This document shows, one piece after another, positions 42,225-56,335 of a stretch of 64,000 nucleotides of DNA. Every line of letters starts with the position of its first letter. The stretch's first letter is position 1. This DNA comes from a bacterium (lineage in GTDB: Bacteria; Verrucomicrobiota; Verrucomicrobiia; Limisphaerales; UBA11358). The notes below the pieces were generated by a model. It saw only the letters and a program-made list of their open reading frames with translations, was not told the origin of the DNA and did not search any database. The stretch is from the NCBI GenBank assembly GCA_021780905.1, contig JAJXXW010000018.1:1-64000 (forward strand). Reading direction: 5' to 3'. Position numbers and translations under genes: made by a program.

Positions 42225-42308
42225 GGATTGCCGTCTGAATACGCCGGTTTCATTTTCAGGGCAAGCAATTTTCCCGGCAAAAATTTCTTTGCGCCCGGAC
42301 GACTTTGC

Positions 42309-43847
42309 GTGGAAATTCTCCGCGTGCCTGTCGCCGAAGCCATCCGCAAAAAACTGGGAACCGTCCCGCACAAGCCCGGCGTGTATTTGCACAAGGACCG
42401 TTTCGGCACGGTCATCTACGTGGGCAAGGCGCGCGATCTCCGCAAGCGCGTCAGCCAGTATTTCCATCCGGGCCGGCGCCGGGGCTGGGATTTGAAATTC
42501 AACGCGCTCGTCGAGGCCATCCACGATTTCGATGTCCACGTCGTCCGCAGCGAGCCGGAGGCGTTGCTGCTCGAAAGCAAACTCATCAAGGATTTCAAAC
42601 CGCGTTTCAACGTCAGCCTGCGCGACGACAAGCGGTTCCTGATGCTCAAGGTCAACCTGCACGATCCGATTCCCAACTTCACTTTCACGCGGCTGAAGAA
42701 GGACGACGGCGCCCGCTACTTCGGCCCGTTCGTGAATTCCCTCGCGTTGCGGAACACCGTCGCGCTGGCGCGGAAGCAGTTCAACTTGCGCGGCTGCCGC
42801 GTGTTCACGCCGGGCGCGGCGGATTACAAGCACTGTCTTTACGCCCATTTGAAACACTGCACCGCGCCGTGCGTCGGCAACGTCACGCGCGAGCAGTATC
42901 TGGAACAGGTGAAGGCCGCGTGCCAGTTCCTCGAAGGCCAGTGCCGCGAAATGCAGCCGCAGCTTGAGGCGGAGATGAAAAAGGCCGCCGCCGCGCACGA
43001 TTTTGAGAAGGCCGCCGGCTTGCGCGATCTGCTCCGCGATTTGCAGGACACCTGGAAACGGACGGAAAAATTCGAGCGCGTGCCCTACACGTTGCCGCTG
43101 GCGATCAATCCCCGGAATGATTTGGTCGAACTGGCGAAAGTTCTTGGCTTGCCCGCGCCGCCGGAGCGGATCGAAGGCTTCGATATTTCCAACATCAGCG
43201 GCACATTCGCCGTCGCATCGCTGGTCAGCTTCAAAAATGGCCGGCCCGACCGCGCGAACTATCGCCGCTTCAAAATCAAGACGGTCGCGGGGCAGGACGA
43301 TTTTGCCAGCATGGCGGAAGTGGTGCGGCGGCGGTATTCACGGCTGAAACGCGAGTCCGAAGTCGAAGCCACCGCGCAACTTTCCACCTTCAAGCTTCAA
43401 GCTCCAACCTTTCCCGATTTAATCCTGATTGACGGCGGCAAAGGTCAGCTCGGCATGGCCGGCGCGGAGCTTGCGAAGCTGGGCCTGGAGAAAATCCCGG
43501 TCATCGGCCTGGCCAAGGAATTTGAGGAAATCTATTTGCCGGGAAAATCCGATCCACTGCGGCTGGGCTTGGACCATCCGGCGGTCAAATTGCTGCAGCG
43601 CATCCGCGACGAATGCCATCGCGTGGCCAACAGCTACAACGCGCAGTTGCGGCTCAAGAAAATTTCCGAGAGCGTGCTGGACGAGTTCCCCGGCATCGGC
43701 GGGCGGCGCAAAGCGGCGCTGCTGAAGAAATTCGGCTCGGTCGCGCGCCTGAAAACCGCGACGCTGGAACAAATCGCCGCCGTGCCCGGCTTCGGCGGCA
43801 AGGCGGCGGCGGAGTTGAAGGATTTTCTGGCGGCGCGCACGGCGTGA
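42309..43847 (+). CDS. uvrC: UvrABC excinuclease subunit C
   Basis: About 512 residues. No ATG fits; the GTG at 42309 is the best start because the conserved I-R-K-K-L-G-T-V-P-H-K-P-G-V-Y begins shortly after. GIY-YIG nuclease: G-V-Y-L-H-K...V-I-Y-V-G-K-A-R-D-L-R at about 24-50. UVR domain (binds UvrB): H-D-F-E-K-A-A-G-L-R-D at about 232. UvrC RNase H-like nuclease: E-G-F-D-I-S-N-I-S-G at about 292 and L-I-L-I-D-G-G-K-G-Q-L at about 372. Helix-hairpin-helix pair at the end (F-P-G-I-G-G-R-R-K-A-A-L, V-P-G-F-G-G-K-A-A). It makes both incisions in nucleotide excision repair. A stretch of about 14 residues (A-Q-L-S-T-F-K-L-Q-A-P-T-F-P) just before L-I-L-I-D-G-G is encoded by 7-bp repeats and looks inserted. 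Confidence 0.92.
   Translation: MEILRVPVAEAIRKKLGTVPHKPGVYLHKDRFGTVIYVGKARDLRKRVSQYFHPGRRRGWDLKFNALVEAIHDFDVHVVRSEPEALLLESKLIKDFKPRFNVSLRDDKRFLMLKVNLHDPIPNFTFTRLKKDDGARYFGPFVNSLALRNTVALARKQFNLRGCRVFTPGAADYKHCLYAHLKHCTAPCVGNVTREQYLEQVKAACQFLEGQCREMQPQLEAEMKKAAAAHDFEKAAGLRDLLRDLQDTWKRTEKFERVPYTLPLAINPRNDLVELAKVLGLPAPPERIEGFDISNISGTFAVASLVSFKNGRPDRANYRRFKIKTVAGQDDFASMAEVVRRRYSRLKRESEVEATAQLSTFKLQAPTFPDLILIDGGKGQLGMAGAELAKLGLEKIPVIGLAKEFEEIYLPGKSDPLRLGLDHPAVKLLQRIRDECHRVANSYNAQLRLKKISESVLDEFPGIGGRRKAALLKKFGSVARLKTATLEQIAAVPGFGGKAAAELKDFLAARTA
43374..43415 (+). repeat. Heptamer-phased block inside uvrC
   Basis: Six 7-base units: gcgcaac, tttccac, cttcaag, cttcaag, ctccaac, ctttccc. Two adjacent units are identical and the rest share a YTYCAAS-like pattern. 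The total of 42 bases equals 14 codons, so the reading frame is preserved. Confidence 0.7.
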
Positions 43848-43850
43848 TTT

Positions 43851-43938
43851 TTAACGCAAAGCTGCGGAGCCGCCGGCCGGTGGTTGGTAAAGCCGCTTTG
43901 CGCCTTTGTTTCCGGGCGCCTTTGCGTTAATCTTTTTG
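43851..43938 (+). terminator. Inverted repeat after uvrC, possible terminator
   Basis: ttaacgcaaag (43851-43861) pairs perfectly with ctttgcgttaa (43920-43930), followed by tcttttt. A third partial copy, gctttgcgc, lies between (43895-43903). The segment 43895-43936 also reads as 7-base units rich in CTTTG. The long spacer makes simple termination uncertain. Confidence 0.5.
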
Positions 43939-43941
43939 CGC

Positions 43942-44346
43942 ATGAACATTCAAGTGGCCGTGCTTTGCGACGCGGCGACGGACGACAACGGCAAGTTGAA
44001 TCTCCTCGGCTCGTTCGACACCATTTTCGCGCCGCAGTTGCCGGCGGTGCACCCGCAATGCGCCGTGGCGCTGCGCGTCACGTTCCAGCCCGGCGACGAG
44101 GGCACGCGCAAGCTCGCGCTCAACTTTATCAACGCCGACGGCCAGCCCATCATGCAGGCCATCGAGCTGCCCGTGCCGGTGGCGCTGCCGGACGACGCGC
44201 ATTTTCTCACGCGCAATTTCATCGTGAACATCCAGCAGCTGAAGTTTGCCGAACCGGGGTTGTATTCCGTGGACGTGCGGCTGGACGATGAATCCCAGGC
44301 GAGCATTCCGCTGCTCGTGAAACTGGTCGAACGTCCGGTCGCGTGA
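43942..44346 (+). CDS. DUF6941 family protein
   Basis: A protein of 134 residues. N-I-Q-V-A-V-L-C-D-A-A-T-D-D-N-G-K-L-N-L near the start and G-S-F-D-T-I-F-A-P follow the conserved opening of DUF6941 proteins; later P-G-L-Y-S-V-D-V-R-L-D-D is also typical. No signal peptide or membrane helix, so cytoplasmic; function unknown. The ATG at 43942 is chosen over 43906 because the conserved region begins there. The T-rich hairpin region just upstream suggests that it is transcribed separately from uvrC. Confidence 0.8.
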   Translation: MNIQVAVLCDAATDDNGKLNLLGSFDTIFAPQLPAVHPQCAVALRVTFQPGDEGTRKLALNFINADGQPIMQAIELPVPVALPDDAHFLTRNFIVNIQQLKFAEPGLYSVDVRLDDESQASIPLLVKLVERPVA

Positions 44347-44444
44347 GAAACCAACGCCAAAGTCGGCAGCCGGAACGCAGTAACATCCCGCTGTCCGCCC
44401 GGTTTGAAAATAACCAGTGCCTGCCGGCTTCCTTCTAAAATTCG

Positions 44445-44486
44445 CCTTTGATGGGCGACTTTGGGCTTTGAACTTTGCGTTCCGAC
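44445..44486 (+). repeat. Heptamer-phased block upstream of purC
   Basis: Six 7-base units: cctttga, tgggcga, ctttggg, ctttgaa, ctttgcg, ttccgac. Three consecutive units begin CTTTG. It ends 16 bases before the purC ATG, so it occupies the promoter or leader region. Confidence 0.7.
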
Positions 44487-44502
44487 CATTATTTTTTCCG
44501 CC

Positions 44503-45393
44503 ATGAACGAACCGATTCTCCAACTCGATCTGCCCGGCATCAAAAAAGTCCGCTCCGGCAAAGTCCGCGAAGTCTTCGACCTCGGCGACCGCTATCTGCT
44601 CGTCGCCAGCGACCGCATTTCCGCTTTCGACGTCATCATGCCCAACGGCATCCCGCACAAGGGCGCGGTGCTCACGCAGATCTCGCACTTTTGGTTCGAG
44701 AAATTTGCGGCGCTCGTCCCGAACCACCTGCTTGCCAAGGCCAACGACCCATTGCCCGCGAACCTCCAGCCTTACGCCGACAAACTGACGAAGCGCTCGA
44801 TGATCGTGAAGAAAGCCAAGCCGCTCGCCATCGAGTGCATCGTGCGCGGCTATCTTTCCGGCAGCGGTTTGAAGGAATACAAGAAATCCCAGACCGTTTG
44901 CGGCATCAAGCTGCCCGCCGGCCTCGTGGATTCCTCCGAATTGCCCGAACCGATTTTCACGCCGTCCACCAAGGCCGAGGAAGGCCACGACGAAAACATC
45001 AACTTCGAGCAAGCCTGCAAGATCGTCGGCACCGAGCTCGCCACGCAGGCGCGCGACTTGAGCCTGATGATCTACAAGGCCGGACGCGACTTCGCCCGCC
45101 AGCGCGGCATCATCATCGCCGACACGAAATTCGAGTTTGGTTTGTTCGAGGGCAAGCTCATCCTGATTGACGAAGTGCTCACGCCGGATTCCTCGCGCTT
45201 CTGGCCGGCCGACCAATACGCGCCCGGCAAAGGCCAGCCGAGCTTCGACAAGCAATTTGTCCGCGACTACCTCGAAACGCTGACGTGGGACAAAACCCCG
45301 CCCGGCCCGAAACTCCCCGACGACGTTGTTACCAAAACTTCCGCAAAATATCTGGAGGCTTACGAACGACTGACCGGTAGAAAACTCCATTAG
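44503..45393 (+). CDS. purC: Phosphoribosylaminoimidazole-succinocarboxamide synthase (SAICAR synthetase)
   Basis: A protein of 296 residues catalysing the ATP-dependent joining of aspartate to CAIR in purine synthesis. Signatures: G-K-V-R-E-V-F-D-L-G-D at about 19-29, L-V-A-S-D-R-I-S-A-F-D-V near 33, G-A-V-L-T-Q-I-S-H-F-W-F, E-C-I-V-R-G-Y-L-S-G-S-G, and late D-T-K-F-E-F-G and L-I-D-E-V-L-T-P-D-S-S-R-F-W. The ATG at 44503 begins the conserved N-terminus; an upstream ATG at 44461 lies inside the heptamer block. Stand-alone, as is common. Confidence 0.96.
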   Translation: MNEPILQLDLPGIKKVRSGKVREVFDLGDRYLLVASDRISAFDVIMPNGIPHKGAVLTQISHFWFEKFAALVPNHLLAKANDPLPANLQPYADKLTKRSMIVKKAKPLAIECIVRGYLSGSGLKEYKKSQTVCGIKLPAGLVDSSELPEPIFTPSTKAEEGHDENINFEQACKIVGTELATQARDLSLMIYKAGRDFARQRGIIIADTKFEFGLFEGKLILIDEVLTPDSSRFWPADQYAPGKGQPSFDKQFVRDYLETLTWDKTPPGPKLPDDVVTKTSAKYLEAYERLTGRKLH

Positions 45394-45564
45394 CCACCAA
45401 AAAAGTGAGTTGACGGGCATCCGGCTCCGCTTTGGCGAAAGCCGTGGCTCATTGGTTGCGCTGGCCGCTGACGCAACTGCCCAGGCGGGCGATGGGGCTT
45501 CGGTCAGTCGCCGGGACGTTTCCGCGCGTGGCGGGACGACCGCGAAATCCCGCCCAAGCCTTTC

Positions 45565-45592
45565 TTGACACAAAGCCGGTCGCTGCTATGCT
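45565..45592 (+). promoter_or_regulatory. Promoter of rpmH-rnpA-yidD-yidC-jag
   Basis: TTGACA (45565-45570), 16-base spacer, TATGCT (45587-45592). This is a near-consensus sigma-70-type promoter 43 bases before the rpmH ATG. Confidence 0.8.
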
Positions 45593-45635
45593 CGCACGCT
45601 CCGGTTTTTGCGCCGGAAATTTATTTTGGAATTTT

Positions 45636-45773
45636 ATGAAACGCCAGTATCAACCGTCGAAGATCCGTCGGAAACGCCAGCATGGCTTCCTCGCCCGCAA
45701 CAAGACCAAGCGCGGCGCGGCCACGATCGCGCGCCGTCGCCGCGCGGGCCGCAAACGTCTCACGCCGGTTTGA
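45636..45773 (+). CDS. rpmH: 50S ribosomal protein L34
   Basis: A protein of 45 residues, [20 protein letters not shown] then [10 protein letters not shown], the full canonical L34. It starts the conserved ribosome/RNase P/membrane-insertase gene cluster, with a strong promoter just upstream; rnpA begins four bases after its stop. Confidence 0.97.
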
Positions 45774-45777
45774 TGCC

Positions 45778-46146
45778 GTGAACGCCGCGCCGCAACGCCT
45801 GCGCCTGGGCCGCGCCTCGCGGCTGGCGCAGAACCGCGATTTCACCCGCGTCCGGCAGCGCGGCGAACGGCTCGTGCTCGGCTGCCTCATCGCGAACTGG
45901 AGCCGGCTGCCCGCTGGCGACGGGCCGAAACTCGGCGTGGTCACCAGCAAGAAAATCGGCGGCGCGGTTGTCCGCAGCCGCGCCCGGCGGCTGCTTCGGG
46001 AAAGTTTCCGGCGGCATCAGCATGAATTCGCGCAGCCGGTGGAACTGATTTTGGTCGCGCGCCATTCCATCGCCCAAAAGGATTTCGCCGGCGTGGAAAG
46101 GGATTTTCTCACCGCGCTGCACCGCGCCAAGCTGCTGAAAAACTGA
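45778..46146 (+). CDS. rnpA: Ribonuclease P protein component
   Basis: A protein of 122 residues. The GTG at 45778 gives V-N-A-A-P-Q-R-L-R-L-G-R-A-S-R-L then F-T-R-V-R-Q-R-G-E-R-L; no ATG is available, as is common for rnpA. The RNA-binding signature is V-V-R-S-R-A-R-R-L-L-R-E-S-F-R, preceded by L-G-V-V-T-S-K-K-I-G-G-A. It works with the RNase P RNA (not in this window) to mature tRNA 5' ends. Four bases separate it from rpmH and one from yidD. Confidence 0.94.
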   Translation: MNAAPQRLRLGRASRLAQNRDFTRVRQRGERLVLGCLIANWSRLPAGDGPKLGVVTSKKIGGAVVRSRARRLLRESFRRHQHEFAQPVELILVARHSIAQKDFAGVERDFLTALHRAKLLKN

Positions 46147-46147
46147 C

Positions 46148-46426
46148 ATGAACCCGCTCCAGCACATCCTCATTTTCGCGGTGCGCGCCTATCGCCTGGC
46201 GCTTTCGCCGGCGCAGGTTTTTCTGTTTGGCGCCGGTTCCGGCTGCCGGTTCACGCCGACGTGCTCGGCTTACGCCCTGGGCGCGGTGCGCGAGCACGGC
46301 GCGGCAAAAGGAAGCGTTTTGGCGGCGCAGCGGATTTGCCGCTGTCACCCGTGGGGCGGTTGCGGCCACGACCCGGTGCCGGAAAAAAATCCGCCCTCCG
46401 CCCTCCGCCCTCCGCAATTCATTTAA
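46148..46426 (+). CDS. yidD: Membrane protein insertion efficiency factor YidD
   Basis: A protein of 92 residues. A-Y-R-L-A-L-S-P-A-Q-V-F-L-F-G, C-R-F-T-P-T-C-S-A-Y-A-L and C-H-P-W-G-G-C-G-H-D-P-V-P are the conserved YidD segments with their cysteines. An amphipathic N-terminal helix tethers it to the inner membrane, where it assists YidC. Its last 14 or so residues (K-N-P-P-S-A-L-R-P-P-Q-F-I) are encoded largely by a CCGCCCT heptamer array and look like an added tail. yidC starts 5 bases later. Confidence 0.93.
   Translation: MNPLQHILIFAVRAYRLALSPAQVFLFGAGSGCRFTPTCSAYALGAVREHGAAKGSVLAAQRICRCHPWGGCGHDPVPEKNPPSALRPPQFI
46391..46418 (+). repeat. CCGCCCT tandem heptamers at the yidD 3' end
   Basis: Three exact copies of ccgccct (46391-46411) followed by a fourth degenerate unit, ccgcaat. 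Three units equal 21 bases, or 7 codons, so the array stays in frame. Confidence 0.85.
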
Positions 46427-46431
46427 TTTTC

Positions 46432-48291
46432 ATGGACAAGACTGGAATCATCGTTGTTTCGCTGTGCGGCGTGCTGCTCGTTTGGTGGTTTGTGGAGCAG
46501 AAAAAAATCGCCGACCGGCAGGCGCAGTATCTGGCGGCGCATCCTGTCGCCGCCGCGCCGGTCGCCGACTCCAATCCGCCGCCGGCGGCGACGGTGCCGG
46601 GCAACCCGCCCGCGCCCGTGGCGGTGTTCGACACCAACGCGCCGGAGCAGACGCTCGTGCTGACGAACGGCCGGCCGCACCATGACTGGGCGCGTTACAC
46701 CTTCACCTCGCGCGGCGGCGGGTTGAAGCTGATCGAACTGCTGGATTATCCCGAAACGGTTTCCGCGCGCTGGAAAGCGGCGGTGACAAACTCGGCCGCC
46801 GTCGCGGCGTTGAACGCGCGGGCCACGGTGCCGGCGCTGGCGCTGCTCGGCGAAGGCGACAACACCAGTTTGTTGGGCGACGGCAATTTCACTTTGACGC
46901 CGACGGCCACCGGCGTGCGCGCGGAAAAAAACCTGCCCGGCGGCCTGCGCCTGGTGAAAAACTTCCAGCTCAGTTCCAATTTCCTCATCAACGCCAGCTT
47001 CCGCATTGAAAACCCTTCCGCCCGGCCGGTCAATGTGCCGGCGCAGGAATGGGTCGTCGGCACGGCCACGCCGATGGATGTGGACGACAACGGCCAGGTG
47101 GAGGGCGCGCTGTGGTTTGATGGCACGAAGGCCGTGGATCAGCCGCTGGCGTGGTTTGCCGGCGGCGGTGGCTGTTCCCGCGGGGCACCCCGGTCCGAAT
47201 TTCGCGCCGGCAACGGCAACGTCGTCTGGGCGGCCGCGCACAACCAGTTTTTCGCGATGGTGGCCATGCCGCCGACCAACGCGCCGGCGCAGCAGGTGGT
47301 TGCGCGTCCGGTCGTTTTGCCCCGTTTCCAAAATGTCGGGGTCGTGACGAACGTGGTCGCGCCGCAGGGCATCCAGACGGCGCTGGTGTATCCGGCGCTG
47401 ACGTTGTCGGCCAACTCGGGTTTCGACCGGCAGATCGTTTTCTTTGCCGGGCCGAAGGAGTTTCGCACGCTATCCGATGTCGGCGAGGAACTCAACAACC
47501 ACGCCGACCAGGTGATGAATTTTGGCAGCGGCTACATCGCGTTTTGGGGCATCGGCACCTTCTTCGCGAAACTGTTGCTGTCCGGCATGAACGCGGTGCA
47601 TGATTGGTTCGGTGTGGGCTATGGCTGGGCGATTGTGCTGATCACCTTTCTGATCAAGGGGCTGTTCTGGCCGCTGACGGCGGCGAGCACGCGCTCGATG
47701 AAGCGGATGCAGGCGCTCCAGCCGGAGCTGGCCGCGCTCAAGGAAAAATACAAGGACGACGTGCAGAAGCTGACGGCGAAGCAGTGGGAACTTTACAAGC
47801 AGCACAAGGTGAACCCGATGAGCGGCTGCCTGCCGATGGTCATCCAGATGCCGGTCTTTCTCGGCTTTTTCACGATGATCCGCAGCGCCATCGAACTGCG
47901 CGGCGCGCATTTTCTGTGGGTGGCGGATTTGTCCAAGCCGGACACGCTGTTCATGATTCCGGGCCTGACGTTCGTGCCCTTCATCAGCACGCCGGAAGGG
48001 CTGCCGTTCAACCTGCTGCCGCTGCTGATGGGCGGCTCCATGCTCTGGCAATCGCACCTGACGCCGCCCTCGCCCGGCATGGACCCGGCCCAGCAAAAAA
48101 TGATGCGCTGGCTGCCCGCGATGTTCATCGTGTTCCTTTACAATTATTCCTCCGGCCTGGCGCTCTACTGGACGGTCAACAACCTGCTCACCGTCGCCCA
48201 GACCAAGTTGACCAAGGCGAAAACGCCCGCGGCACCGGCCGGCCCGGTCACGAATCCGGCGTTGACACCGGCGGCGAAAAAGAAAAAATAA
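46432..48291 (+). CDS. yidC: Membrane protein insertase YidC
   Basis: A protein of 619 residues. An N-terminal membrane helix (I-I-V-V-S-L-C-G-V-L-L-V-W-W-F-V) and proline/alanine linker lead to the large periplasmic domain (about 65-335). The conserved insertase core runs from about 362 to 600: G-Y-G-W-A-I-V-L-I-T-F-L-I-K-G-L-F-W-P-L-T, then P-E-L-A-A-L-K-E-K-Y, M-S-G-C-L-P-M-V-I-Q-M-P-V-F, and L-Y-W-T-V-N-N-L-L-T. A lysine-rich end (K-K-K-K) binds ribosomes. Gram-negative layout. The ATG at 46432 is chosen as the first one before the signal anchor. Confidence 0.95.
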   Translation: MDKTGIIVVSLCGVLLVWWFVEQKKIADRQAQYLAAHPVAAAPVADSNPPPAATVPGNPPAPVAVFDTNAPEQTLVLTNGRPHHDWARYTFTSRGGGLKLIELLDYPETVSARWKAAVTNSAAVAALNARATVPALALLGEGDNTSLLGDGNFTLTPTATGVRAEKNLPGGLRLVKNFQLSSNFLINASFRIENPSARPVNVPAQEWVVGTATPMDVDDNGQVEGALWFDGTKAVDQPLAWFAGGGGCSRGAPRSEFRAGNGNVVWAAAHNQFFAMVAMPPTNAPAQQVVARPVVLPRFQNVGVVTNVVAPQGIQTALVYPALTLSANSGFDRQIVFFAGPKEFRTLSDVGEELNNHADQVMNFGSGYIAFWGIGTFFAKLLLSGMNAVHDWFGVGYGWAIVLITFLIKGLFWPLTAASTRSMKRMQALQPELAALKEKYKDDVQKLTAKQWELYKQHKVNPMSGCLPMVIQMPVFLGFFTMIRSAIELRGAHFLWVADLSKPDTLFMIPGLTFVPFISTPEGLPFNLLPLLMGGSMLWQSHLTPPSPGMDPAQQKMMRWLPAMFIVFLYNYSSGLALYWTVNNLLTVAQTKLTKAKTPAAPAGPVTNPALTPAAKKKK

Positions 48292-48295
48292 ATCC

Positions 48296-48748
48296 ATGCC
48301 TGCGCAACCCAAAGCCATCCTCGAGAAAATGCTCGGCACGCTCGGCCTCCCGGCGACCGTGGTGGAACAGAAATTCGGTGACGACCTGCTGCTCGACGTG
48401 CAGACGGACGAGTCGGGCCGTCTGATCGGCCGGCAGGGGCAGACGCTCGCCGACCTGCAATATCTCGTCAACCGCCTCCTGTTCCAGCAGGACCAGACCG
48501 CGCCCAAGGTGATGGTGGACGTGGGCGGCTATCGTTCACAGGCGCGCGAGGCGCTCGTGAAAAAAGCGAAGGAAGCCGCCGAAAAAGTCCGCCGCTGGGG
48601 CGACGCCGTGGAATTGGAGCCGCTCAACGCCTTTGACCGGCGCATTGTGCATCAGGCGCTCAGGGACGACCCGGACATCGAGGCGCACAGCGTCGAGGTG
48701 GACGGCACGGAGAAAAAGGTTTTGATCCTGCGTCCCAAGCCGCGCTGA
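48296..48748 (+). CDS. jag: KH/R3H-domain RNA-binding protein (Jag/KhpB-like)
   Basis: A protein of 150 residues. A KH domain (L-I-G-R-Q-G-Q-T-L-A-D-L-Q-Y-L-V-N-R at about 43-60) is followed by an R3H domain (E-L-E-P-L-N-A-F-D-R-R-I-V-H-Q-A-L, about 103-119). The Jag_N domain seen in longer homologues is absent, giving the short form. It is a cytoplasmic RNA-binding protein habitually found after yidC. The start is 4 bases after the yidC stop. Confidence 0.93.
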   Translation: MPAQPKAILEKMLGTLGLPATVVEQKFGDDLLLDVQTDESGRLIGRQGQTLADLQYLVNRLLFQQDQTAPKVMVDVGGYRSQAREALVKKAKEAAEKVRRWGDAVELEPLNAFDRRIVHQALRDDPDIEAHSVEVDGTEKKVLILRPKPR

Positions 48749-48808
48749 AAGGTGCCGCGTGGACAGTGCGAAGGAGCAAAGAACCGGGTCAAGATGCGCG
48801 GCTCCGGA

Positions 48809-48920
48809 ATGAACCCGCTCTATTACGGCCACAACCTCCACGGGCTTCGCGCGCAAATCCAAAACGAATTCGCTGACCTCAGCTCCTTCACCCCGTCGTT
48901 CAATTCCAGGCGCGACCACA
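48809..48920 (+). pseudogene. Remnant of an adenine-specific DNA methyltransferase N-terminus
   Basis: The frame from the ATG at 48809 reads M-N-P-L-Y-Y-G-H-N-L-H-G-L-R-A-Q-I, then F-A-D-L-S-S-F-T-P-S-F-N-S-R-R-D-H. Type III/DpnA-like adenine methyltransferases begin with a similar L-Y-Y-G-D-N-L-x-V-L-R...D-L-I-Y-L-D-P-P-F-N-S-x-R-D-Y (family knowledge). The catalytic D-P-P-F has become T-P-S-F, and no further methyltransferase sequence follows. It lies in the 422-base gap between jag and the polysaccharide genes; the rest of that gap has no recognisable gene apart from the heptamer block at 49055. Confidence 0.55.
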
Positions 48921-49054
48921 TCTGCTGTGCAAGACACCGAAGGCAGGATCATCGCGCTGCGACGATCCAGACCCCGCTGCGCGCCGTTCCTGCCCGGTGG
49001 AGACGGCCCTGCCTTTGGGAGCCTGATCCTTCGGATTTTGGAGGCCGCTTATTG

Positions 49055-49103
49055 GGTTTCCAGTCTCAAGTTTTCAGTTTTGGTTTTGGTGCTTGAAACT
49101 TGC
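49055..49103 (+). repeat. Heptamer-phased block upstream of the first polysaccharide gene
   Basis: Seven 7-base units: ggtttcc, agtctca, agttttc, agttttg, gttttgg, tgcttga, aacttgc. Several share AGTTTT. It ends about 67 bases before the next start. Confidence 0.65.
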
Positions 49104-49170
49104 CAGCCGGCGGCGGGCCAACTAAAGTCAAAACTTGCGCCCAACCGCGCAATCCGACCGAACGACGCCG

Positions 49171-50109: not shown

Positions 50110-50115
50110 TTGCCC

Positions 50116-51282
50116 ATGCGCGTCGTCATCCTGACCACCGACAACCGCGAGCCGCACAAGGATTACGCGAACCCGCAGCCGCATTTTGGCACCGCGCCTG
50201 CCGCGCTGCTGCAAGGACTGGCGCTGCTTCCGGAAATTGAGGTCCACGTCGTCGCCTGCATCCGCCGGCCGGTGGCGGCGCCGGCGAAGATCGCGCCGAA
50301 CATGTTTTTCCACAGCCTGGTCGTCCCGAAAATCGGCTGGATGAAAACCCTGTTCCAAGGCTGCGTCCGCGCCGCGCGGAAAAAAATCCGGGAAATCCGG
50401 CCGGATCTCGTCCACGGCCAGGGCACCGAGGCGGATTGCAGCGTGAGCGCGGTGTTCTCCGGTTTTCCAAATGTGCTGACGCTGCACGGCAACATGCGGG
50501 CGGTGGCGCGGATTAACGGCGACCGGCCGTTCTCCTACAACTGGCTGGCGGCGCGGCTGGAAGGCTTTGTCCTGCCGCGCACGGATGGCGTGGTGTGCAT
50601 CACGAACTACACCCGGGCGGCGGTTCAAGACCTGGCGCGAAAGACGTGGGTGCTGCCCAACGCGGTGGATGCCGGTTTTTTTGAAGTAGCGGCAGTGCCA
50701 GATTTGGCCGCGCCGCCGGTGATCCTGTGCGTGGGCAACGTCTGCGGCTACAAAAACCAGACCGGGTTGATTCACGCGCTAGAGCCGCTGGTCCGGGAGA
50801 AAAATTTCCGGCTGGTCTTTCTGGGCCAATTGGCCAAGGACGATTACAGCCGGGAATTTGTGCGGCTCGTCCGGGAACGGCCCTGGTGCGAGCACGCCGG
50901 GTTTGCCAGCCGGGAGCAGTTGCAGGCCTGGCTCCGGTCGGCGGCACTGCTCGCCCTGCCCACGCGGGAGGACAACTGCCCGATGGTGGTGCTGGAGGCG
51001 ATGGCGGCGGGCGTGCCGGTGTTCGCCTCTGCCGTCGGCGGCGTGCCGGACTTGATCCAGCACGAGGTCAACGGCCTGCTGTGCGATCCGGAGCGGCCGG
51101 AAACCTTTGCGGCGGCGGTGGCGCGGCTGCTGGCCGACCGCGATTTTGCCGCCCGCTTGGCGGCCACGGCCCAAGCGCAGGCCCGGCAACGGTTTCATCC
51201 GCTCGTCATCGCGCGGAAGCATCTGGAGATTTACCGGGAGGTCCTTGAAAATAAAAAGCGGAAAGCAAAATTTGAGACCTGA
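50116..51282 (+). CDS. Glycosyltransferase family 4 (group 1)
   Basis: A protein of 388 residues with two Rossmann-like halves. N-terminal acceptor half: R-V-V-I-L-T-T-D-N-R-E-P-H, H-G-Q-G-T-E-A-D-C, L-T-L-H-G-N-M. C-terminal donor half: L-P-N-A-V-D, then C-V-G-N-V-C-G-Y-K-N-Q and the E-x7-E nucleotide-sugar motif E-D-N-C-P-M-V-V-L-E-A-M-A-A-G. The ATG at 50116 is preferred over a TTG six bases earlier. A retaining transferase for surface glycan assembly; donor unknown. Its last residues (E-N-K-K-R-K-A-K-F-E-T) are encoded by the start of a heptamer-phased block. Confidence 0.85.
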   Translation: MRVVILTTDNREPHKDYANPQPHFGTAPAALLQGLALLPEIEVHVVACIRRPVAAPAKIAPNMFFHSLVVPKIGWMKTLFQGCVRAARKKIREIRPDLVHGQGTEADCSVSAVFSGFPNVLTLHGNMRAVARINGDRPFSYNWLAARLEGFVLPRTDGVVCITNYTRAAVQDLARKTWVLPNAVDAGFFEVAAVPDLAAPPVILCVGNVCGYKNQTGLIHALEPLVREKNFRLVFLGQLAKDDYSREFVRLVRERPWCEHAGFASREQLQAWLRSAALLALPTREDNCPMVVLEAMAAGVPVFASAVGGVPDLIQHEVNGLLCDPERPETFAAAVARLLADRDFAARLAATAQAQARQRFHPLVIARKHLEIYREVLENKKRKAKFET

Positions 51283-51299
51283 AACTGGAATGAGCTTTT
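51244..51299 (+). repeat. Heptamer-phased block across the GT4 stop codon
   Basis: Eight 7-base units: cttgaaa, ataaaaa, gcggaaa, gcaaaat, ttgagac, ctgaaac, tggaatg, agctttt. Purine-rich; the gene stop (51280-51282) lies inside it. Confidence 0.6.
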
Positions 51300-51328
51300 G
51301 GCGGGCATTCCCATTTTTCAGATGGTCT

Positions 51329-51463
51329 TCAGCCCAGGCCGAGGCGGGCCAACTGGCGGCGGAGGCGGCGGGTGGCCGGCATTTCCAACCGGGTGTGAAA
51401 AACCGAGGCGATGAGGAGGCAGAATGAAAAACAGGCCGCTGCCAGTAGCACCGCCGTGGTGGT
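51329..51463 (-). pseudogene. C-terminal remnant of a membrane acyltransferase (acyltransferase 3-like)
   Basis: An open stretch of 44 codons without an ATG reads a membrane helix (A-V-L-L-A-A-A-C-F-S-F-C-L-L-I-A-S-V-F) followed by R-L-E-M-P-A-T-R-R-L-R-R-Q-L. Acyltransferase-3 proteins end with a last helix followed by a similar E-x-P-x-R-R-W-L-R-R motif. It begins just after the GT9 stop on the same strand. The rest of the 194-base gap holds part of a heptamer block. Confidence 0.4.
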
Positions 51464-51476
51464 TCATGGCGGGCAA

Positions 51477-52454
51477 TTAGCTGACCAGATGCTTTTGCAC
51501 AAACTTTTCCACGCGCGGACCGACGTCGTCCACCGCGATCCCGCGCAGGCAGAATGGCTCGGCGAACCGGCAGTAATCCGAGCACGGCTTGTAGGGGCAG
51601 GCCCGGCCCTCCACCACCTCGGCCGCCGGGTGCAGCGGCGCGAACCACTCATGCAGTTGCGGGCCGAACAGCGTGAAGGTGGGCAGCCCGCAGGCCGCCG
51701 CCAGGTGGCCGGGGCCGGAATCGTTGCCAATGAAGACGCCCGCCCGGTCCAGGCAGCCCAGCAGTTCCGTGACATCGCGGGGGGCGACGGCCGCTTCGCC
51801 CCGGCTTTGCCACCAGGCTAACTGGCCGGCATCGCAGGCCACCTGCACGGCCACCTTTTGTTGCCGCAGGCGCGCGGCCAGTGCCGCAAAATTTTCCAGC
51901 GGCCAAACGCGCAGCGGCAGGCGCGCGCCGGTGTGGAGCAGTGCCACCGGCGGGATCGGCCCGCGCGGCCCGGCAAACATTTCCGCGCGCGGCGGCAGGG
52001 TCAGGCCCAGCGCCGCGCCCGCCACCCGCCAGGCTTCCAGCCGGTGCGCCAGCGGGGCCGGCCGCACGAGTTCCTGCGTGAGATAACGACCGCTTTTCAG
52101 CCGGGAGAAGCCCAGCCGCACCCGCGCGCCGGACAGTTTGAGGGCCAGATGATCGCGCGGGTCCCAGCGGGCCGAGACGCCAAAATCGAACGCCTGGGCC
52201 GCCAGCCGGCGGCGCAGGCGGGACAGCTCCGGCCACTGCCAGCGCCAGAACTGATACTTGGCGCGGAAGGCCGTCCACGGCGCGGTGAAGGGCAGCACGT
52301 TCACCGCCGGCCACAGCCGGGGGCGCAGTTCCGAGGCGTAGGGTTTGGCCAGCAGGGTGACATCATATTTCTCCGCCGCCGCGCGGAGAAACGGCGTGGC
52401 GATGACGAGGTCGCCCAGCCCCCAGAGTTCCAAAACCAGAAGTTTAGGTTTCAT
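51477..52454 (-). CDS. Glycosyltransferase family 9 (heptosyltransferase-like)
   Basis: A protein of 325 residues. The ATG at 52454 begins M-K-P-K-L-L-V-L-E-L-W-G-L-G-D-L-V-I-A-T-P-F-L, the GT9 opening. The nucleotide-sugar site is F-I-G-N-D-S-G-P-G-H-L-A-A-A-C-G-L-P-T-F-T-L-F-G. A cysteine-rich C-terminal segment (C-P-Y-K-P-C-S-D-Y-C, then C-L) is seen in a subset of GT9 proteins. GT9 enzymes add heptose or related sugars to lipopolysaccharide core. The chosen start excludes an upstream extension that reads through heptamer repeats. Confidence 0.85.
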   Translation of the reverse strand: MKPKLLVLELWGLGDLVIATPFLRAAAEKYDVTLLAKPYASELRPRLWPAVNVLPFTAPWTAFRAKYQFWRWQWPELSRLRRRLAAQAFDFGVSARWDPRDHLALKLSGARVRLGFSRLKSGRYLTQELVRPAPLAHRLEAWRVAGAALGLTLPPRAEMFAGPRGPIPPVALLHTGARLPLRVWPLENFAALAARLRQQKVAVQVACDAGQLAWWQSRGEAAVAPRDVTELLGCLDRAGVFIGNDSGPGHLAAACGLPTFTLFGPQLHEWFAPLHPAAEVVEGRACPYKPCSDYCRFAEPFCLRGIAVDDVGPRVEKFVQKHLVS

Positions 52455-52922
52455 GGGGCGGGTGAAAAGTTGAAAGATTGAAGCGTTGAAAAATGGAGTT
52501 GCCTCCCCCGACGACGGAGATTTTGCGTTTATAGGAGACCGGCCCTGCATCCGCCCGGTGAATCAAAATGGATGGCTCAAACGCGAACGCGCTCCCTTGA
52601 TCTGCGCGCACCTGTGCCATTGGCGGACAAACCGACGGCGGAACTGATATTGCAAGCGGGTTCCGGCAAAGGGAAGGCTGACAGGCGGGTTTCATCCGGG
52701 TTAATTCGGCATTTCACGTCTCGACCCGTTTCGGTTCTCAATTTTTGGATGGGGCCGGCAATTCTCTGGTCGCCGGGATTTGCCGGCGGCCCGGCGGTCC
52801 GTCCCTGCCACGTCGCCTGGGCGGCGCATACGGAGTGAAGCACACGGCCAGCCCAAGGTCTCGATGTGGTTGGGTTCAGCCATCGCTTGCATTTTGCAGC
52901 TTCCAATTGCCGCTTTCCGGTT
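52455..52922. other. 468-base intergenic region with two heptamer blocks
   Basis: Between the GT9 start and the 3' end of the ligase gene, both on the minus strand. No recognisable gene in any frame. It contains heptamer blocks at 52462-52496 and 52892-52947. The middle (about 52560-52860) shows no structure that I can interpret. Confidence 0.6.
52462..52496 (-). repeat. Heptamer-phased block upstream of the GT9 gene
   Basis: Plus-strand units: gtgaaaa, gttgaaa, gattgaa, gcgttga, aaaatgg. It begins 8 bases upstream of the GT9 ATG (minus strand). Confidence 0.65.
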
Positions 52923-52947
52923 TCAGGTTTTCAGTCCCAACTCTCCG
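52892..52947 (-). repeat. Heptamer-phased block at the 3' end of the ligase gene
   Basis: Plus-strand units: ttttgca, gcttcca, attgccg, ctttccg, gtttcag, gttttca, gtcccaa, ctctccg. The last units lie inside the ligase-like coding sequence, encoding its extreme C-terminus (G-E-L-G-L-K-T). Confidence 0.65.
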
Positions 52948-54470
52948 CCGGCGGGCGCGGCCACGGGCAGGGGCTTGATGCGGGGGGTGAAGGCAGGTTT
53001 GGGTGCGGGCCGGCAGATGCCCCAGTTCAGGGCGATACTGAAGCCCAGCCCCTTGGCCGCGTCGGCCACCAAATCGTGAAAACCGCCAAAGACGAAATAG
53101 AAGCCAAAGGTGCCGGCAATTCCCCACGCCAAACCATAAGCGTTAAAAGTCTTCAGTTCCGGATCGCCATACCGGTAGTTGCGGTAGAACACAAACAGGC
53201 CGGCGGCTTGCAGCCAGACCAGACCGATGGCACCCCAGAGACCAAAGGGGATGAGCGTGGTCAGCGGCCCGCTGTGATAATCTCCGGAAATCGCCAGCGT
53301 CTCCTGGGAGGCATCAAAACTCGCCCCCAAGCCGGAAAAGGCGCCTGAACCGATATGTTGAAAATCCTCGGCGCTCAGGCTGTAGCCTTTGCCCAATAGG
53401 AGGTAATCGGGCACCTGCGGCCAGAGCACGGCCCACATATCTTCCCGCCATTTCGTGCTACCCTGCGCATCGGCCAACACTTGCGGATCCCATTTCAGGG
53501 GCAGAAAGCTCATGGAGCGCTGGAAGGTATAAGGCAGGGAGTCGGAGAAAAAGCCCACGACCGGGGCCACCAGCAGCGCCGCCAGCAGCGCCACGGGCAG
53601 CAGCGGCGTGCGGTGCAGGCCCTCCATGAAAAACATGAGGATGATCACCACCGCAAACGAGAATAAATTGCTCCGGAAACCGCCCAGCAGACTCAGGGGA
53701 AACAGCAGCAAAAACACAACCGCCCGCCACCGCTGGGGCGACAGGAAAATTCCCCGCAAACCGTATCGGGCCATCAGATAACCACAGATGCCACCGAAAA
53801 CCCCCGCAACGGATCCCAGCCGGGTCTTGCCCAAAGACACATCCTGCATCTGGCCCAGCGAGGAGGGAAACAACTGGTTGAGGGCGTGAAACGGCCCGCC
53901 GAGCAGTGAGGCCACATCCCCGATGATGCTCGTCGTGCCGGTAAGCAACCACAAGGCGATGTAAAAATTCCGCTTCTCCTTGGGGACGGCCTGGCTGGTC
54001 AGCGCAAAGTAGGAGGCGATGCCGATGAAAATGGTCAGGTATTTCTTGCCGCCACCGCCTGCCCCGCCCAACTGGTGCAGGCCGATGCCGCCGGTCAGTC
54101 TCGACGTCAGGTAGGCCATGGCGGCGATGTAGAGCAGCGGCCAGGTGACCATCGGCGCGCTGATGAACCGGCGGTTGCCCATGGCCCGGTCCACCACGGC
54201 GATGCCCAGGGCCAGCAGTGTCACCACCTGCCAGAGCGGCGGATTGCCGACCAGGAAAAAACAATAGGCCGGGCAGCACAAGCCGAAGACGAGGAAGGGA
54301 TAATACCACTTGATGAACGCCGGCGAGAGCAGCAGGGCGATGATGATGGCGAAAAATCCGAGTGAGCCGTAGTCCATCGGATTGGTGAGCAGGTAGCCCA
54401 CCAGAATGGCGAGCGGGATGATGACCGCATAGGTGATCAACATCCGCAGGGCGCTGGAAGGATTGGTCAT
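52923..54470 (-). CDS. O-antigen ligase/polymerase-like membrane protein
   Basis: A protein of 515 residues with about ten to twelve membrane helices (I-P-L-A-I-L-V-G-Y-L-L, F-F-A-I-I-I-A-L-L-L, V-F-L-L-L-F-P-L-S-L-L-G-G). A large periplasmic loop of about 90 residues follows R-S-M-S-F-L-P-L (W-R-E-D-M-W-A-V-L-W, L-L-L-G-K-G-Y-S-L), and the segment G-D-Y-H-S-G-P-L-T-T-L-I-P-F-G is the 'x-H-S/N' motif at the end of the WaaL/Wzy loop. It joins or polymerises lipid-linked glycan units in the inner membrane; ligase versus polymerase cannot be decided. The C-terminal cytoplasmic tail is proline-rich and partly encoded by heptamers. Confidence 0.75.
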   Translation of the reverse strand: MTNPSSALRMLITYAVIIPLAILVGYLLTNPMDYGSLGFFAIIIALLLSPAFIKWYYPFLVFGLCCPAYCFFLVGNPPLWQVVTLLALGIAVVDRAMGNRRFISAPMVTWPLLYIAAMAYLTSRLTGGIGLHQLGGAGGGGKKYLTIFIGIASYFALTSQAVPKEKRNFYIALWLLTGTTSIIGDVASLLGGPFHALNQLFPSSLGQMQDVSLGKTRLGSVAGVFGGICGYLMARYGLRGIFLSPQRWRAVVFLLLFPLSLLGGFRSNLFSFAVVIILMFFMEGLHRTPLLPVALLAALLVAPVVGFFSDSLPYTFQRSMSFLPLKWDPQVLADAQGSTKWREDMWAVLWPQVPDYLLLGKGYSLSAEDFQHIGSGAFSGLGASFDASQETLAISGDYHSGPLTTLIPFGLWGAIGLVWLQAAGLFVFYRNYRYGDPELKTFNAYGLAWGIAGTFGFYFVFGGFHDLVADAAKGLGFSIALNWGICRPAPKPAFTPRIKPLPVAAPAGGELGLKT

Positions 54471-54544
54471 GGCTCAAATTCGATTGCAACTCACCGGCTC
54501 AATCTAACTGTTCCCGCCGCACCGCGGCAATGGAAAAGGCGGTG

Positions 54545-54565
54545 TCCCCAGAAAGAACCTGGGGA
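54545..54565. repeat. Short hairpin tccccag/ctgggga
   Basis: A perfect 7-bp inverted repeat with a 7-base loop in the 218-base gap between the ligase-like and GT2 genes, next to the larger inverted repeat at 54591. Confidence 0.6.
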
Positions 54566-54590
54566 TTTGGATGCGGGTTTCAATTATCAG

Positions 54591-54643
54591 GGGTCTTTCC
54601 TAGTTGAGCGGGTGTGAACCTGCTGAAACACTAGGAAAGACCC
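54591..54643. repeat. Large structured inverted repeat
   Basis: gggtctttcctagt (54591-54604) pairs perfectly over 14 bases with actaggaaagaccc (54630-54643). The 25-base centre contains a second stem, agcgggt/acctgct, with one G-T-type mismatch. No T-tract follows on either strand, so it is not a standard terminator. It lies 45 bases beyond the end of the minus-strand GT2 gene and upstream of the ligase-like gene. Confidence 0.7.
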
Positions 54644-54688
54644 TTGCGTTATCTACCCACTCCCGAAAAAATCGTTCACGCGGGGAAA

Positions 54689-55657
54689 TCAGTTTTTTCC
54701 CGGCGGCAAGAGGCCGGCGCTGTCGCGGATGACCCAGATCGGCCGCCCCTTGACCTCCTCGTAGATGCGCCCGATGTATTCGCCGAGAATACCGAGGCAG
54801 ATGAGCTGCACGCCGCCCAGAAACAAAATGGAAATTACCAGCGTCGGGATGCCGTGCGGGCCAGGCGTGAAGCCGAACTTCGCAAAAGTGTCCGCAAAAA
54901 CTTTTTCACAAAAGGTGAACACGGCGCCGAGAAACGCGCACGCGGAAACCGCCAGCCCCAGATAAGTTGCCAGCCGCAGCGGCACGGTGGAGAACGAGAA
55001 CATTCCGTCCATCGCCAGCCGGAAGGATTTTTTGAAGGTGTATTGCGCCACGCCGGCGGCGCGCTCGGCGCGTTCAAATTCCACCGAGGTCTGCCGGAAG
55101 CCGCACCACGTCCGCAGGCCGCGCAGGTAGCGGTTGCGTTCGGGCATCGCGTTCATCACGGCCACGACCTTTTTATCGAGCAGGCAGAAATCGCCGGCAT
55201 CGCGCGCCATTGGCAGCGGCGTCAGTTTTTGCAGCAGCCGGTAGAAGCCCCACGCGAGAAATTTCTTCAGCGGCGGATCCTTGCGCTGCGTGCGGGTGGC
55301 GAAAACGACTTCATAACCTTCGCGCCATTTTTGCAGCAGCCGGGAAATTTCTTCCGGCGGATCTTGCAAATCGGCGTCAAGGATCACGACCGCGTCGCCG
55401 CCGGCGAAATGCAGGCCGGCGCTGACCGCCGTCTGGTGGCCGAAGTTGCGGGCAAAGCTCAGGCCGCGCCAGCGCGCGTCCCGGGCGTTTTGCGCCTTGA
55501 GGATTTCCCAGGTCCGGTCGCGCGAGCCGTCGTCCACGCAGATGAACTCGCAGTCGGCCTGCCAGGTCGCGGCGGCCCGGCCCAGCCGGTCAAACAACGC
55601 CGGCAGCACCGCCTCCTCGTTGAAGCAGGGCACGACGACGGAAATTTTCTTCTGCAT
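54689..55657 (-). CDS. Polyprenyl-phosphate glycosyltransferase (GT2, GtrB/ArnC-like)
   Basis: A protein of 322 residues. The ATG at 55657 begins M-Q-K-K-I-S-V-V-V-P-C-F-N-E-E-A-V-L. GT2 domain: C-V-D-D-G-S-R-D-R-T, R-N-F-G-H-Q-T-A-V-S-A-G, and the metal-binding I-L-D-A-D-L-Q-D-P-P-E. Two C-terminal membrane helices (L-R-L-A-T-Y-L-G-L-A-V-S-A-C and L-V-I-S-I-L-F-L-G-G-V-Q-L-I-C-L-G-I-L-G-E-Y-I-G-R) are typical of enzymes that transfer sugar to undecaprenyl or dolichyl phosphate. It supplies lipid-linked sugar to GT39-like transferases such as the one at 57086 (inference). Confidence 0.9.
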   Translation of the reverse strand: MQKKISVVVPCFNEEAVLPALFDRLGRAAATWQADCEFICVDDGSRDRTWEILKAQNARDARWRGLSFARNFGHQTAVSAGLHFAGGDAVVILDADLQDPPEEISRLLQKWREGYEVVFATRTQRKDPPLKKFLAWGFYRLLQKLTPLPMARDAGDFCLLDKKVVAVMNAMPERNRYLRGLRTWCGFRQTSVEFERAERAAGVAQYTFKKSFRLAMDGMFSFSTVPLRLATYLGLAVSACAFLGAVFTFCEKVFADTFAKFGFTPGPHGIPTLVISILFLGGVQLICLGILGEYIGRIYEEVKGRPIWVIRDSAGLLPPGKN

Positions 55658-55689
55658 GGTCGGAATGAAACGGCCAAACTGCGGCAAAT

Positions 55690-56175
55690 TCAATCCCGGA
55701 AATTCACAAACTGCACGGCCACGGGGAATTCATGCGCGCGCACGGCGGCGATGACCGCCTGCAAATCATCGCGGCTCTTGCCCTGCACGCGCACCTCGTC
55801 GCCCTGGATTTGCGTCGTCACCTTGAGCTTGCTCTCGCGGATGAAGCCGGCGATTTCCTTGGCGACGGCGCTCTCGATGCCGTTCTTGATCTTGATGCTC
55901 TGGCGCGCGTGGCCGAGCGGCGAGATGTCCGGGTCGCATTGCTCGATGCTTTTCATGCTGATGCCGCGCTTGGCGAGCTTGCCGATGACAATCTCATTCA
56001 GCGTGGCGACCTTGAACTCGTTGTCGGCGGTGAGCTTGATCTCGGTTTTGTCCAAAATGATCTCCCATTTGCTGCCCTTGAAATCAAAGCGGTTGGCCAG
56101 TTCCTTTTTGGCCTGGTTGACGGCGTTCTCGATTTCCATCGAGTTGACCTGCGAAACGATGTCGAATGAAGGCAT
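55690..56175 (-). CDS. yajQ: YajQ family nucleotide-binding protein
   Basis: A protein of 161 residues, the full family length. M-P-S-F-D-I-V-S and the following E-N-A-V-N-Q-A-K-K-E-L, R-F-D-F-K-G-S, I-S-M-K-S-I-E-Q, K-E-I-A-G-F-I-R-E-S-K-L-K-V and Q-G-D-E-V-R-V-Q-G-K-S-R-D-D-L-Q are family hallmarks. YajQ proteins are cytoplasmic; some bind cyclic di-GMP, others tRNA. It ends 32 bases before the GT2 gene start on the same strand. Confidence 0.95.
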   Translation of the reverse strand: MPSFDIVSQVNSMEIENAVNQAKKELANRFDFKGSKWEIILDKTEIKLTADNEFKVATLNEIVIGKLAKRGISMKSIEQCDPDISPLGHARQSIKIKNGIESAVAKEIAGFIRESKLKVTTQIQGDEVRVQGKSRDDLQAVIAAVRAHEFPVAVQFVNFRD

Positions 56176-56241
56176 GACTTAAATTGCGATTGGCCGGTAA
56201 CGATTCACGATTTTGCGCGCGGGCGCAAACCTTAAATTGCA

Positions 56242-56292
56242 GTAGCCGCCGATTTGAATCGGCAGATTTCCGCGTTTTGCAAACGCGGCTAC
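56242..56292. repeat. 51-base palindromic intergenic element with two inner hairpins
   Basis: Outer arms gtagccgc / gcggctac (56242-56249 with 56285-56292) enclose gccgatt-tga-atcggc and ccgcgtttt-gcaaacgcgg. Together they would fold as a three-way or cruciform structure. It lies in the divergent gap between yajQ and the GT2 gene at 56351. It looks like a REP-type structured repeat; no second copy was seen in this window. Confidence 0.7.
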
Positions 56293-56307
56293 ATTTGCGG
56301 ATTGAAT

Positions 56308-56335
56308 AGTTTAAAGTTTTTTGCCAATTTTCGCC
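56308..56335 (+). repeat. Short heptamer-phased block upstream of GT2 gene
   Basis: Units agtttaa, agttttt, tgccaat, tttcgcc. Weaker than the other blocks and may be chance. Confidence 0.35.

Follow-up and report, generated by a model that had tools for sequence, protein, structure and literature searches.

The stretch of DNA considered here, the first 64,000 nucleotides of contig JAJXXW010000018.1 from a draft genome of the Verrucomicrobiota (NCBI GenBank assembly GCA_021780905.1; Limisphaerales, UBA11358) and called the window below, carries short arrays of degenerate 7-bp direct repeats (heptads), which we have followed through the genome and its relatives. The phenomenon is real and of a kind seen before elsewhere. 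Here it seems to consist of four-heptad insertions, often palindromic, whose units evolve in concert. Our best reading, to which we assign a probability of roughly 0.57, is that these are palindromic insertions similar to miniature inverted-repeat transposable elements (MITEs) or repetitive extragenic palindromic (REP) sequences, that slippage in steps of one heptad drives the concerted evolution of their arms, and that they are kept in genes when in frame.

The genome sample comprises 1,983,911 bases of the 3.89 Mb draft (from 64 of 96 contigs, many of them incompletely covered). It contains 61 segments with a score of at least 12 at period 7, compared with 1, 3, 7, 6 and 2 at periods 5, 8, 10, 11 and 13; these last counts indicate that a handful of the 61 are due to chance. 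Codon structure raises the counts at periods divisible by three to 9-27, and the harmonic at 14 gives 28. With a score of at least 16, there are 34 segments at period 7 and 5 at period 6. An earlier note on this DNA had proposed a 7-bp signal from the window sequence, and the signal clearly exceeds both period 8 and period 6 at these respective scores. It also exceeds shuffled sequence: the first 1.19 Mb yields 33 real segments and none in one order-2 Markov shuffle. Two stretches of Escherichia coli K-12 (100 kb in total) contain no array, where about three would be expected at the density of this genome.

The 61 arrays are mostly 24-34 bp long, that is, about four heptads, with a median of 28 bp outside genes (15 arrays) and 30 bp within them (46 arrays). 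Among the 43 arrays of score at least 14, pairs with identical units number 12, compared with 1.1 predicted by composition; one such pair (C5 818 and C19 107139) lies in similar genes, and the groups of equal units are small (4, 3, 2, 2 and 2 arrays). In the sense direction, genic arrays have the composition A 0.34, C 0.32, G 0.19 and T 0.15. Most unit sequences are devoid of GGG and do not qualify as G-rich, quadruplex-capable units.

Genes were identified with a simple in-house caller and cover 83% of the sequence. When mapped to these, 49 of the 61 arrays overlap a called gene, 46 are wholly inside and 43 well inside, and the open reading frames (ORFs) continue through the genic arrays. All 33 sense units of the strong genic arrays are free of stops; this is not counted as evidence since the arrays lie in ORFs. 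When 20 array-bearing proteins were compared with NCBIfam, 18 were matched at E 0.001 (some below the curated cut-off). The matched hosts are mostly housekeeping enzymes, together with one phage portal protein; hosts include PriA, RecG, LipA, PanC, RibD, HypF, QueE, ThiE, RuvC, TlyA, RsmB and RlmN. Eight hosts were aligned to solved homologs. The residues found in excess at the array number 7 in LipA, 12 in PanC, about 24 in RlmN and 6 and 9 in RibD, and only a few in RecG and ThiE.

At several loci the same variable loop holds different heptads in different relatives. The lag tests that follow exclude loops picked for their arrays. The RecG loop, 66-93 nt long, was parsed in 14 of 19 pieces (five were missed by the pattern). 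Ten such loops give a z of 17.0 at lag 7 and 8.2 at lag 14, with nothing at lags 3-6 and 8-11. The units are GCAGAGG in this genome and GCAGATG, GGAGGAT-like, GTGACAT, AGTCCAA or TTCAACC-like in others; loops are alike within the sets L261/L263/L265, L268/L274 and L256/L257/L271, and no sequence likeness was seen between sets. For PriA, the loop preceding the Walker A motif was extracted at 25 of 30 loci; in the other five, L240-L244, the insert is longer or there is no distinct start. Certain PriA loops are short and have no heptads; the 16 loops of relatives with at least 40 nt give a z of 15.8 at lag 7 and 7.2, 5.4, 3.3 and 4.3 at lags 3, 4, 6 and 10. The third locus is the tail of yidD before yidC, where many relatives have heptad DNA with units such as TCCGCCC, GCAGATG, GAATTCA, TTTCAAG, TCAGGTT and others. 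For 25 distinct tails of at least 40 nt, the window excluded, z is 12.2 at lag 7, 4.1 at lag 6 and at most 0 at lags 5 and 8-11; the 21 tails with no perfect run give 8.9 at lag 7. From units that agree within a loop and show no likeness across groups we infer that the periodicity is renewed: the sequences suggest that the 7-bp period is remade in shared loops as lineages diverge. The yidD tail of L009 contains a repeated heptad dimer (CAGAATTCAGAAGC x2), the kind of higher-order repeat that slippage would produce once a heptad array has mutated.

A further locus is the loop of UvrC. No UvrC homolog was found at loci L006-L026, and the comparison uses 120 homologs listed by a protein search; 108 of them could be parsed by pattern, and in these the stretch from RRY to PDLILIDGG ranges from 13 to 96 residues. 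Counted after RRY, the loop has 17 residues in P0053, 24 in the window and 31 in P0002, that is, steps of exactly seven, between flanks that are 87% (P0053) and 94% (P0002) like those of the window. Among pairs with flanks 93% alike, the loop lengths differ by 7 residues in 88 pairs, by 0 in 89, by 6 in 22 and by 8 in 23. We treat the seven-residue step as an indication only. In a predicted structure of UvrC, residues 357-365 have a predicted local distance difference test score (pLDDT) below 50, which carries little weight in a model that is poor as a whole (pLDDT 59).

Several PriA loops have their heptads arranged as two arms in inverted orientation. Across 16 loops, the inverted match between the two halves of one loop exceeds that between halves taken from separate loops (mean 8.6 versus 6.1; 0 of 300 permutations as high), and DNA folding gives z values of -0.6, -2.3, -2.8, -3.4 and -4.0 for five two-armed PriA loops and -5.0 for one pair from the genome under study. 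In this genome, 10 of the 61 arrays (nine separate pairs, since two of the ten pair with one another) have an inverted partner within 120 bp, compared with 1.7 expected. A palindrome scan that makes no use of a given sequence, run over 441 kb of loci of the genus (some regions twice), finds 16 palindromes with period 7 and 0, 0, 1, 3, 2 and 1 with periods 5, 6, 8, 9, 10 and 11; with period 7 there are none in 120 kb of other Verrucomicrobiota and none in 100 kb of E. coli.

Complete elements in relatives are palindromes of 65-79 bp with about four heptads per arm. A 72-bp hairpin from a PriA loop has matches in 13 of 36 genomes, with 32 places listed. Twelve of these were fetched, nearly all chosen for a near full-length match, and all 12 show both heptad arms with about four heptads each, some with small losses. 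A purine-rich arm (like RR-CGAAGAT-GGAGGAT-TGAAGAT-GGAAGAT-GGC) is followed by the loop and then by a pyrimidine-rich arm (like CCATCCT-CCATCCT-CCATCCT-CCATCTT-CG). Nine of the 12 fetched pieces are open throughout; they include three RecG genes, as well as two pieces that share one context, which we take to be that of a CinA-like gene. A covariance model of this family, R1 (13 copies; unit GGAAGAT-like), has matches in 28 of 36 genomes from the genus, spread over many loci, with up to 37 strand-wise matches in one congener; each palindrome is counted on both strands, so that the number of sites is about half of this, and the counts are lower bounds (134 candidates were scored per genome). In addition to being dispersed at different loci, R1 copies have terminal inverted repeats, with CGAAGATGG-like and CCATCTTCG-like ends. 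The label 'REP-like', as used for such hairpins and for peptides such as GQASRLS..GDRRDACP, is tentative.

Composite elements also exist, in which HLTPALSPLL..DSQ..EG is nested in the loop of a heptad hairpin. They are found in two different genes of different genomes, namely the UvrC loops of P0047, P0067, P0090 and P0092 and the PriA loop of L218. Positions 3-123 of a 126-bp composite in the G002 PriA loop are matched at 76% (DNA) by G020:C33:18164-18284.

The arrays would thus be complete or leftover arms of palindromic insertion elements of about 65-90 bp, each arm being about four 7-bp direct repeats and the two arms being inverted copies around a short loop. The elements may spread as non-autonomous, MITE- or REP-like palindromes, and would be retained in genes only where they leave the reading frame intact overall and add a peptide that is tolerated. 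The arms would then be homogenised by 7-nt slippage or by out-of-register copying of the hairpin, so that phase and length persist while the unit turns over. The host would gain a tolerated, mostly neutral loop, and no regulatory role need be supposed. Slippage or copying, already proposed in the earlier note, is still the likeliest cause of the drift in unit sequence.

A number of observations weigh against insertion of palindromes as the general origin of the arrays. At the threshold used, 51 of the 61 arrays in this genome have no inverted partner, and R1 has no match in this genome, itself one of the 36 (1.59 Mb rescanned); many arrays may therefore be products of slippage that were never hairpins. 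No target-site duplication is seen by eye in 12 flanks, no near-strain empty site being available for comparison, and 33 genic arrays have no common flank. Aligned to their solved homologs, RsmB and QueE have no extra residues where the array lies. The z values of the lag tests overstate independence because some related loops are alike by descent. The seven-residue peak in UvrC is absent with a 95% flank cut (9 pairs at 7, 8 at 6, 4 at 8 and 13 at 11), as it is for heptad-class loops when equal loops are collapsed (40 versus 42 and 14). The period of seven is not exclusive either: the same palindrome scan applied to this genome gives 11 at period 7 and 0, 2, 10, 6, 6 and 0 at periods 5, 6, 8, 9, 10 and 11, those of period 8, 9 and 10 being about as frequent as those of period 7. 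Finally, the R1 stem has one pair with compensatory changes compared with 5.1 in shuffles (for R1 only), so that nothing is seen that maintains the stem after insertion. This is as expected of a palindrome that decays once inserted. Selection on RNA structure was rejected as a candidate, there being no covariation in the R1 family.

The strongest rival is plain replication slippage, in which a chance 7-bp duplication grows to about four copies and hairpins are secondary; in genes, three added copies (21 nt) would keep the frame, with a polymerase that favours 7-nt slips. The diversity of the units, the many arrays with no inverted partner and the seven-residue differences between some close UvrC homologs are all consistent with this, as is an excess of heptamers in many bacteria, reported with a polymerase-footprint idea in a 2007 study cited in PMC4692102. 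We consider this rival unlikely. Arrays outside genes, which are free of any frame rule, have a similar length to those within, inverted partners are some sixfold above chance, and the copies of one palindrome family, at separate loci, agree in both arms and in their ends. A version in which the frame alone dictates four copies (21 nt added) was set aside since intergenic arrays are similar in length and whole two-arm elements are found.

Slightly less likely again is that the heptad hairpins are a further type of REP mobilised by Y1 transposases (REP-associated tyrosine transposases, RAYTs). Six PF01797 matches over the cut-off show that Y1 transposases are present, and REPs within genes are known in Opitutus terrae (PMC3733652). 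An in-frame Y1_Tnp domain also occupies the very PriA loop of three relatives (L241-L243), although shared occupancy may reflect only the tolerance of this loop for inserts. No linkage of a Y1 gene with a heptad element was shown, none having been searched for systematically, and inspection by eye of the 13 aligned copies shows neither a GTAG nor a CGTC tag at their ends. The PriA loop in question carries an in-frame insert of about 190-260 residues in four congeners, L241:1498-4620 (-), L242:241-3162 (+), L243:1501-4728 (-) and L244:64-3270 (+), and it is in the first three that Pfam identifies the Y1 (IS200-like) transposase domain inside PriA.

It is very improbable that the arrays are regulatory or nucleoid-protein sites with 7-bp spacing, selected for function. 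The Geobacter report takes such a view of its own multicopy sets, which consist of four or five heptads or of four octads, interpreting them as regulatory RNA or as sites of global regulators (PMC2700814). Here there is no common flank, the units are many and different, R1 shows no compensatory changes, 43 of the 61 arrays lie well inside genes and the loops differ across species.

Tentatively, and with more doubt than conviction, we propose a wider reading in which several bacterial phyla share mobile or self-renewing hairpins whose hallmark is their architecture (inverted arms, each of four repeats with a 7-bp period) and not their sequence. The arm units would be rewritten in concert by a process dedicated to this, so that a single locus such as the RecG loop would hold a heptad hairpin of near-constant length whose sequence differs between species.

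In the window itself, the blocks were scored at lag 7 relative to 1500 stretches drawn at random from this genome. The earlier note had listed nine heptad blocks, of which four are clear, one is marginal and four are indistinguishable from background; one further array had been overlooked. The blocks at 43374-43415, 46391-46418, 49055-49103 and 52892-52947 are exceptional (P 0.001-0.002), that at 44445-44486 is marginal (P 0.010) and those at 51244, 52462, 43895 and 56308 are ordinary (P 0.06-0.23). Units are indeed similar inside a block, dissimilar across blocks and fixed in a 7-bp phase, and arrays do lie in intergenic positions, at gene ends and within genes. Not apparent at the first reading were the count of about four units per array, the fact that some arrays represent a single arm of a palindrome (hairpin), the recurrence of complete elements at other loci of congeners and the filling of shared loops with other heptads in other species. 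The thresholds used do confirm that 0-39 kb has no array, but the density in the genome predicts only about 1.2 there (P of zero 0.30). The right half of the window is not supported as a special region; clustering in it is weak, with three arrays of score at least 12 in 25 kb compared with 0.77 expected (P 0.04), within boundaries drawn post hoc. Because arrays are rare, the mean autocorrelation of the window is hardly raised at lag 7 (0.252, compared with 0.250 at lag 8; 0.258 and 0.251 from 39 kb on).

The array TCCGCCC x3.7 at 46390..46415 (+; identified by TRF, lag-7 score 19) encodes the tail at the C-terminus of YidD and lies immediately before yidC. Its host, yidD, occupies 46148..46426 (+; PF01809, E 7e-26). 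The neighbouring yidC (46432..48291, +; PF02096) served as the anchor for finding the orthologous junction, with a YidC query sequence that started two codons upstream of the ATG. A degenerate CTTCAAG-like array of about 4.5 units at 43379..43410 (+; lag-7 score 12.5) codes for QLSTFKLQAPTF in the UvrC loop just before PDLILIDGG; the uvrC gene lies at 42309..43847 (+), with PF08459 and others matched on the longer ORF 42000-43847. Two degenerate arrays, scored with a mismatch value of -1, have P 0.002: an AGTTTTS-like one at 49056..49102 (lag-7 score 10), between a KhpB/Jag-like gene and the next called ORF, and a GTTTCAG/CTTTCCG-like one at 52887..52930 (lag-7 score 15), at the 3' end of a minus-strand O-antigen-ligase-like gene (PF04932). 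The overlooked array, GGCTGCC/GGCGGGC at 59381..59406 (+; lag-7 score 14), is in a family-2 glycosyltransferase gene (PF00535). The marginal run, CTTTGGG CTTTGAA CTTTG at 44459..44477 (lag-7 score 8, P 0.010), is near the start of a SAICAR synthetase gene (PF01259).

Heptads lead without being the sole period. Two of the 11 heptad hairpins of this genome lie within a gene, compared with none of the 9 octad (of 10), 4 nonad (of 6) and 5 decad (of 6) hairpins that were placed; it is the heptad that accounts for the strong tandem signal and for most of the genic occurrence. The period-7 pattern AATYSRV x3 is found in 46 of 59 genomes, including this one (32 of 35 other congeners and 13 of 23 from other families), and an equivalent period-8 control pattern in 16 of the 59. 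Over the phylum the period-7 pattern is patchy (65 of 194).

Several families with other periods were encountered. The octad palindromes of this genome include a dispersed family of about 60 bp with CAGGAAnn-like arms, which is intergenic or at gene edges (C18 139250, C29 8533, C36 16775, C7 10404, C24 52452, C54 2885 and C18 126429). Others have arms with a 9-bp period, CGCGAAATA-like (C64 16216, C18 1317 and C21 99360), or a 10-bp period, GGCGRCAAAA-like (C56 6504, C11 4687 and C57 7732). The period-8 control pattern also revealed octad tandem runs (AATCCANN) in the congeners G015, G019, G009, G030 and G031.

Selection would be expected to purge repeats that are not multiples of a triplet from core enzymes, yet RecG, UvrC and RlmN contain them, as does PriA ahead of its Walker A motif. 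The recurring loops mark sites in essential proteins that accept about 7-40 residues, and about 190-260 in the PriA of four relatives. Since period, length and place are preserved while the unit is replaced, such loci provide a record, kept by nature, of copying in 7-bp steps. Four-unit arrays with A- or C-rich sequence also weaken the quadruplex idea put forward for the four-unit count in Xanthomonas.

Short tandemly repeated repetitive (STRR) sequences of cyanobacteria are tandem heptamers in short arrays, with a fixed unit sequence, and we know of no tandem heptads in the palindromic elements of Rickettsia (RPEs). The earlier note knew of no description of heptad arrays for this lineage. 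This holds in the literature searched, where no account of heptads in Verrucomicrobia stood out, but elements of the kind are known in Geobacter metallireducens, Xanthomonas and Nostoc. The TAACTGA repeats of Beggiatoaceae are likewise tandem heptamers in short arrays, but with a fixed unit and mostly just upstream of start codons (PMC4679880). The resemblance to RPEs lies in palindromic inserts in protein genes, and that to the REP (GTAG/CGTC)/RAYT system in small palindromes, some of them in DNA repair genes and with Verrucomicrobia included; the main text of that source does not contain the word 'heptamer' and heptad arms are not known from these elements, and the GTAG/CGTC tags are not seen here (PMC3733652). 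In Xanthomonas and Nostoc the heptads GGGAATC and GGGGAYT prefer four units, are mostly intergenic and are related to G-quadruplexes (PMC4692102). The four-unit preference and the occurrence of inverted repeats are shared with our arrays, as is a change of length and sequence between two species, there mostly in the same gene pairs. Unlike these heptads, with their non-coding bias and single G-rich consensus, those described here are mostly genic and most of their units have no G runs. There is also a likeness in architecture to G. metallireducens, for which PMC2700814 describes 49 four-heptad elements (consensus GGACCGG), both genic and intergenic, together with classes of global-regulator sites (class 3 mostly five heptads, class 1 four octads) that are mostly paired and drawn on opposite strands. 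Multiple arrays of about four tandem heptads, within as well as between genes, are common to both, although many copies of a single family are seen here in congeners (R1), this genome having only small groups of equal units; Geobacter has one consensus per set and a regulatory reading, whereas here the units vary by locus and species and are read as insertions. The four-heptad architecture itself was already known elsewhere (PMC2700814 and PMC4692102); the arrays described here differ in having units that vary by locus and species, and in filling loops of conserved enzymes.

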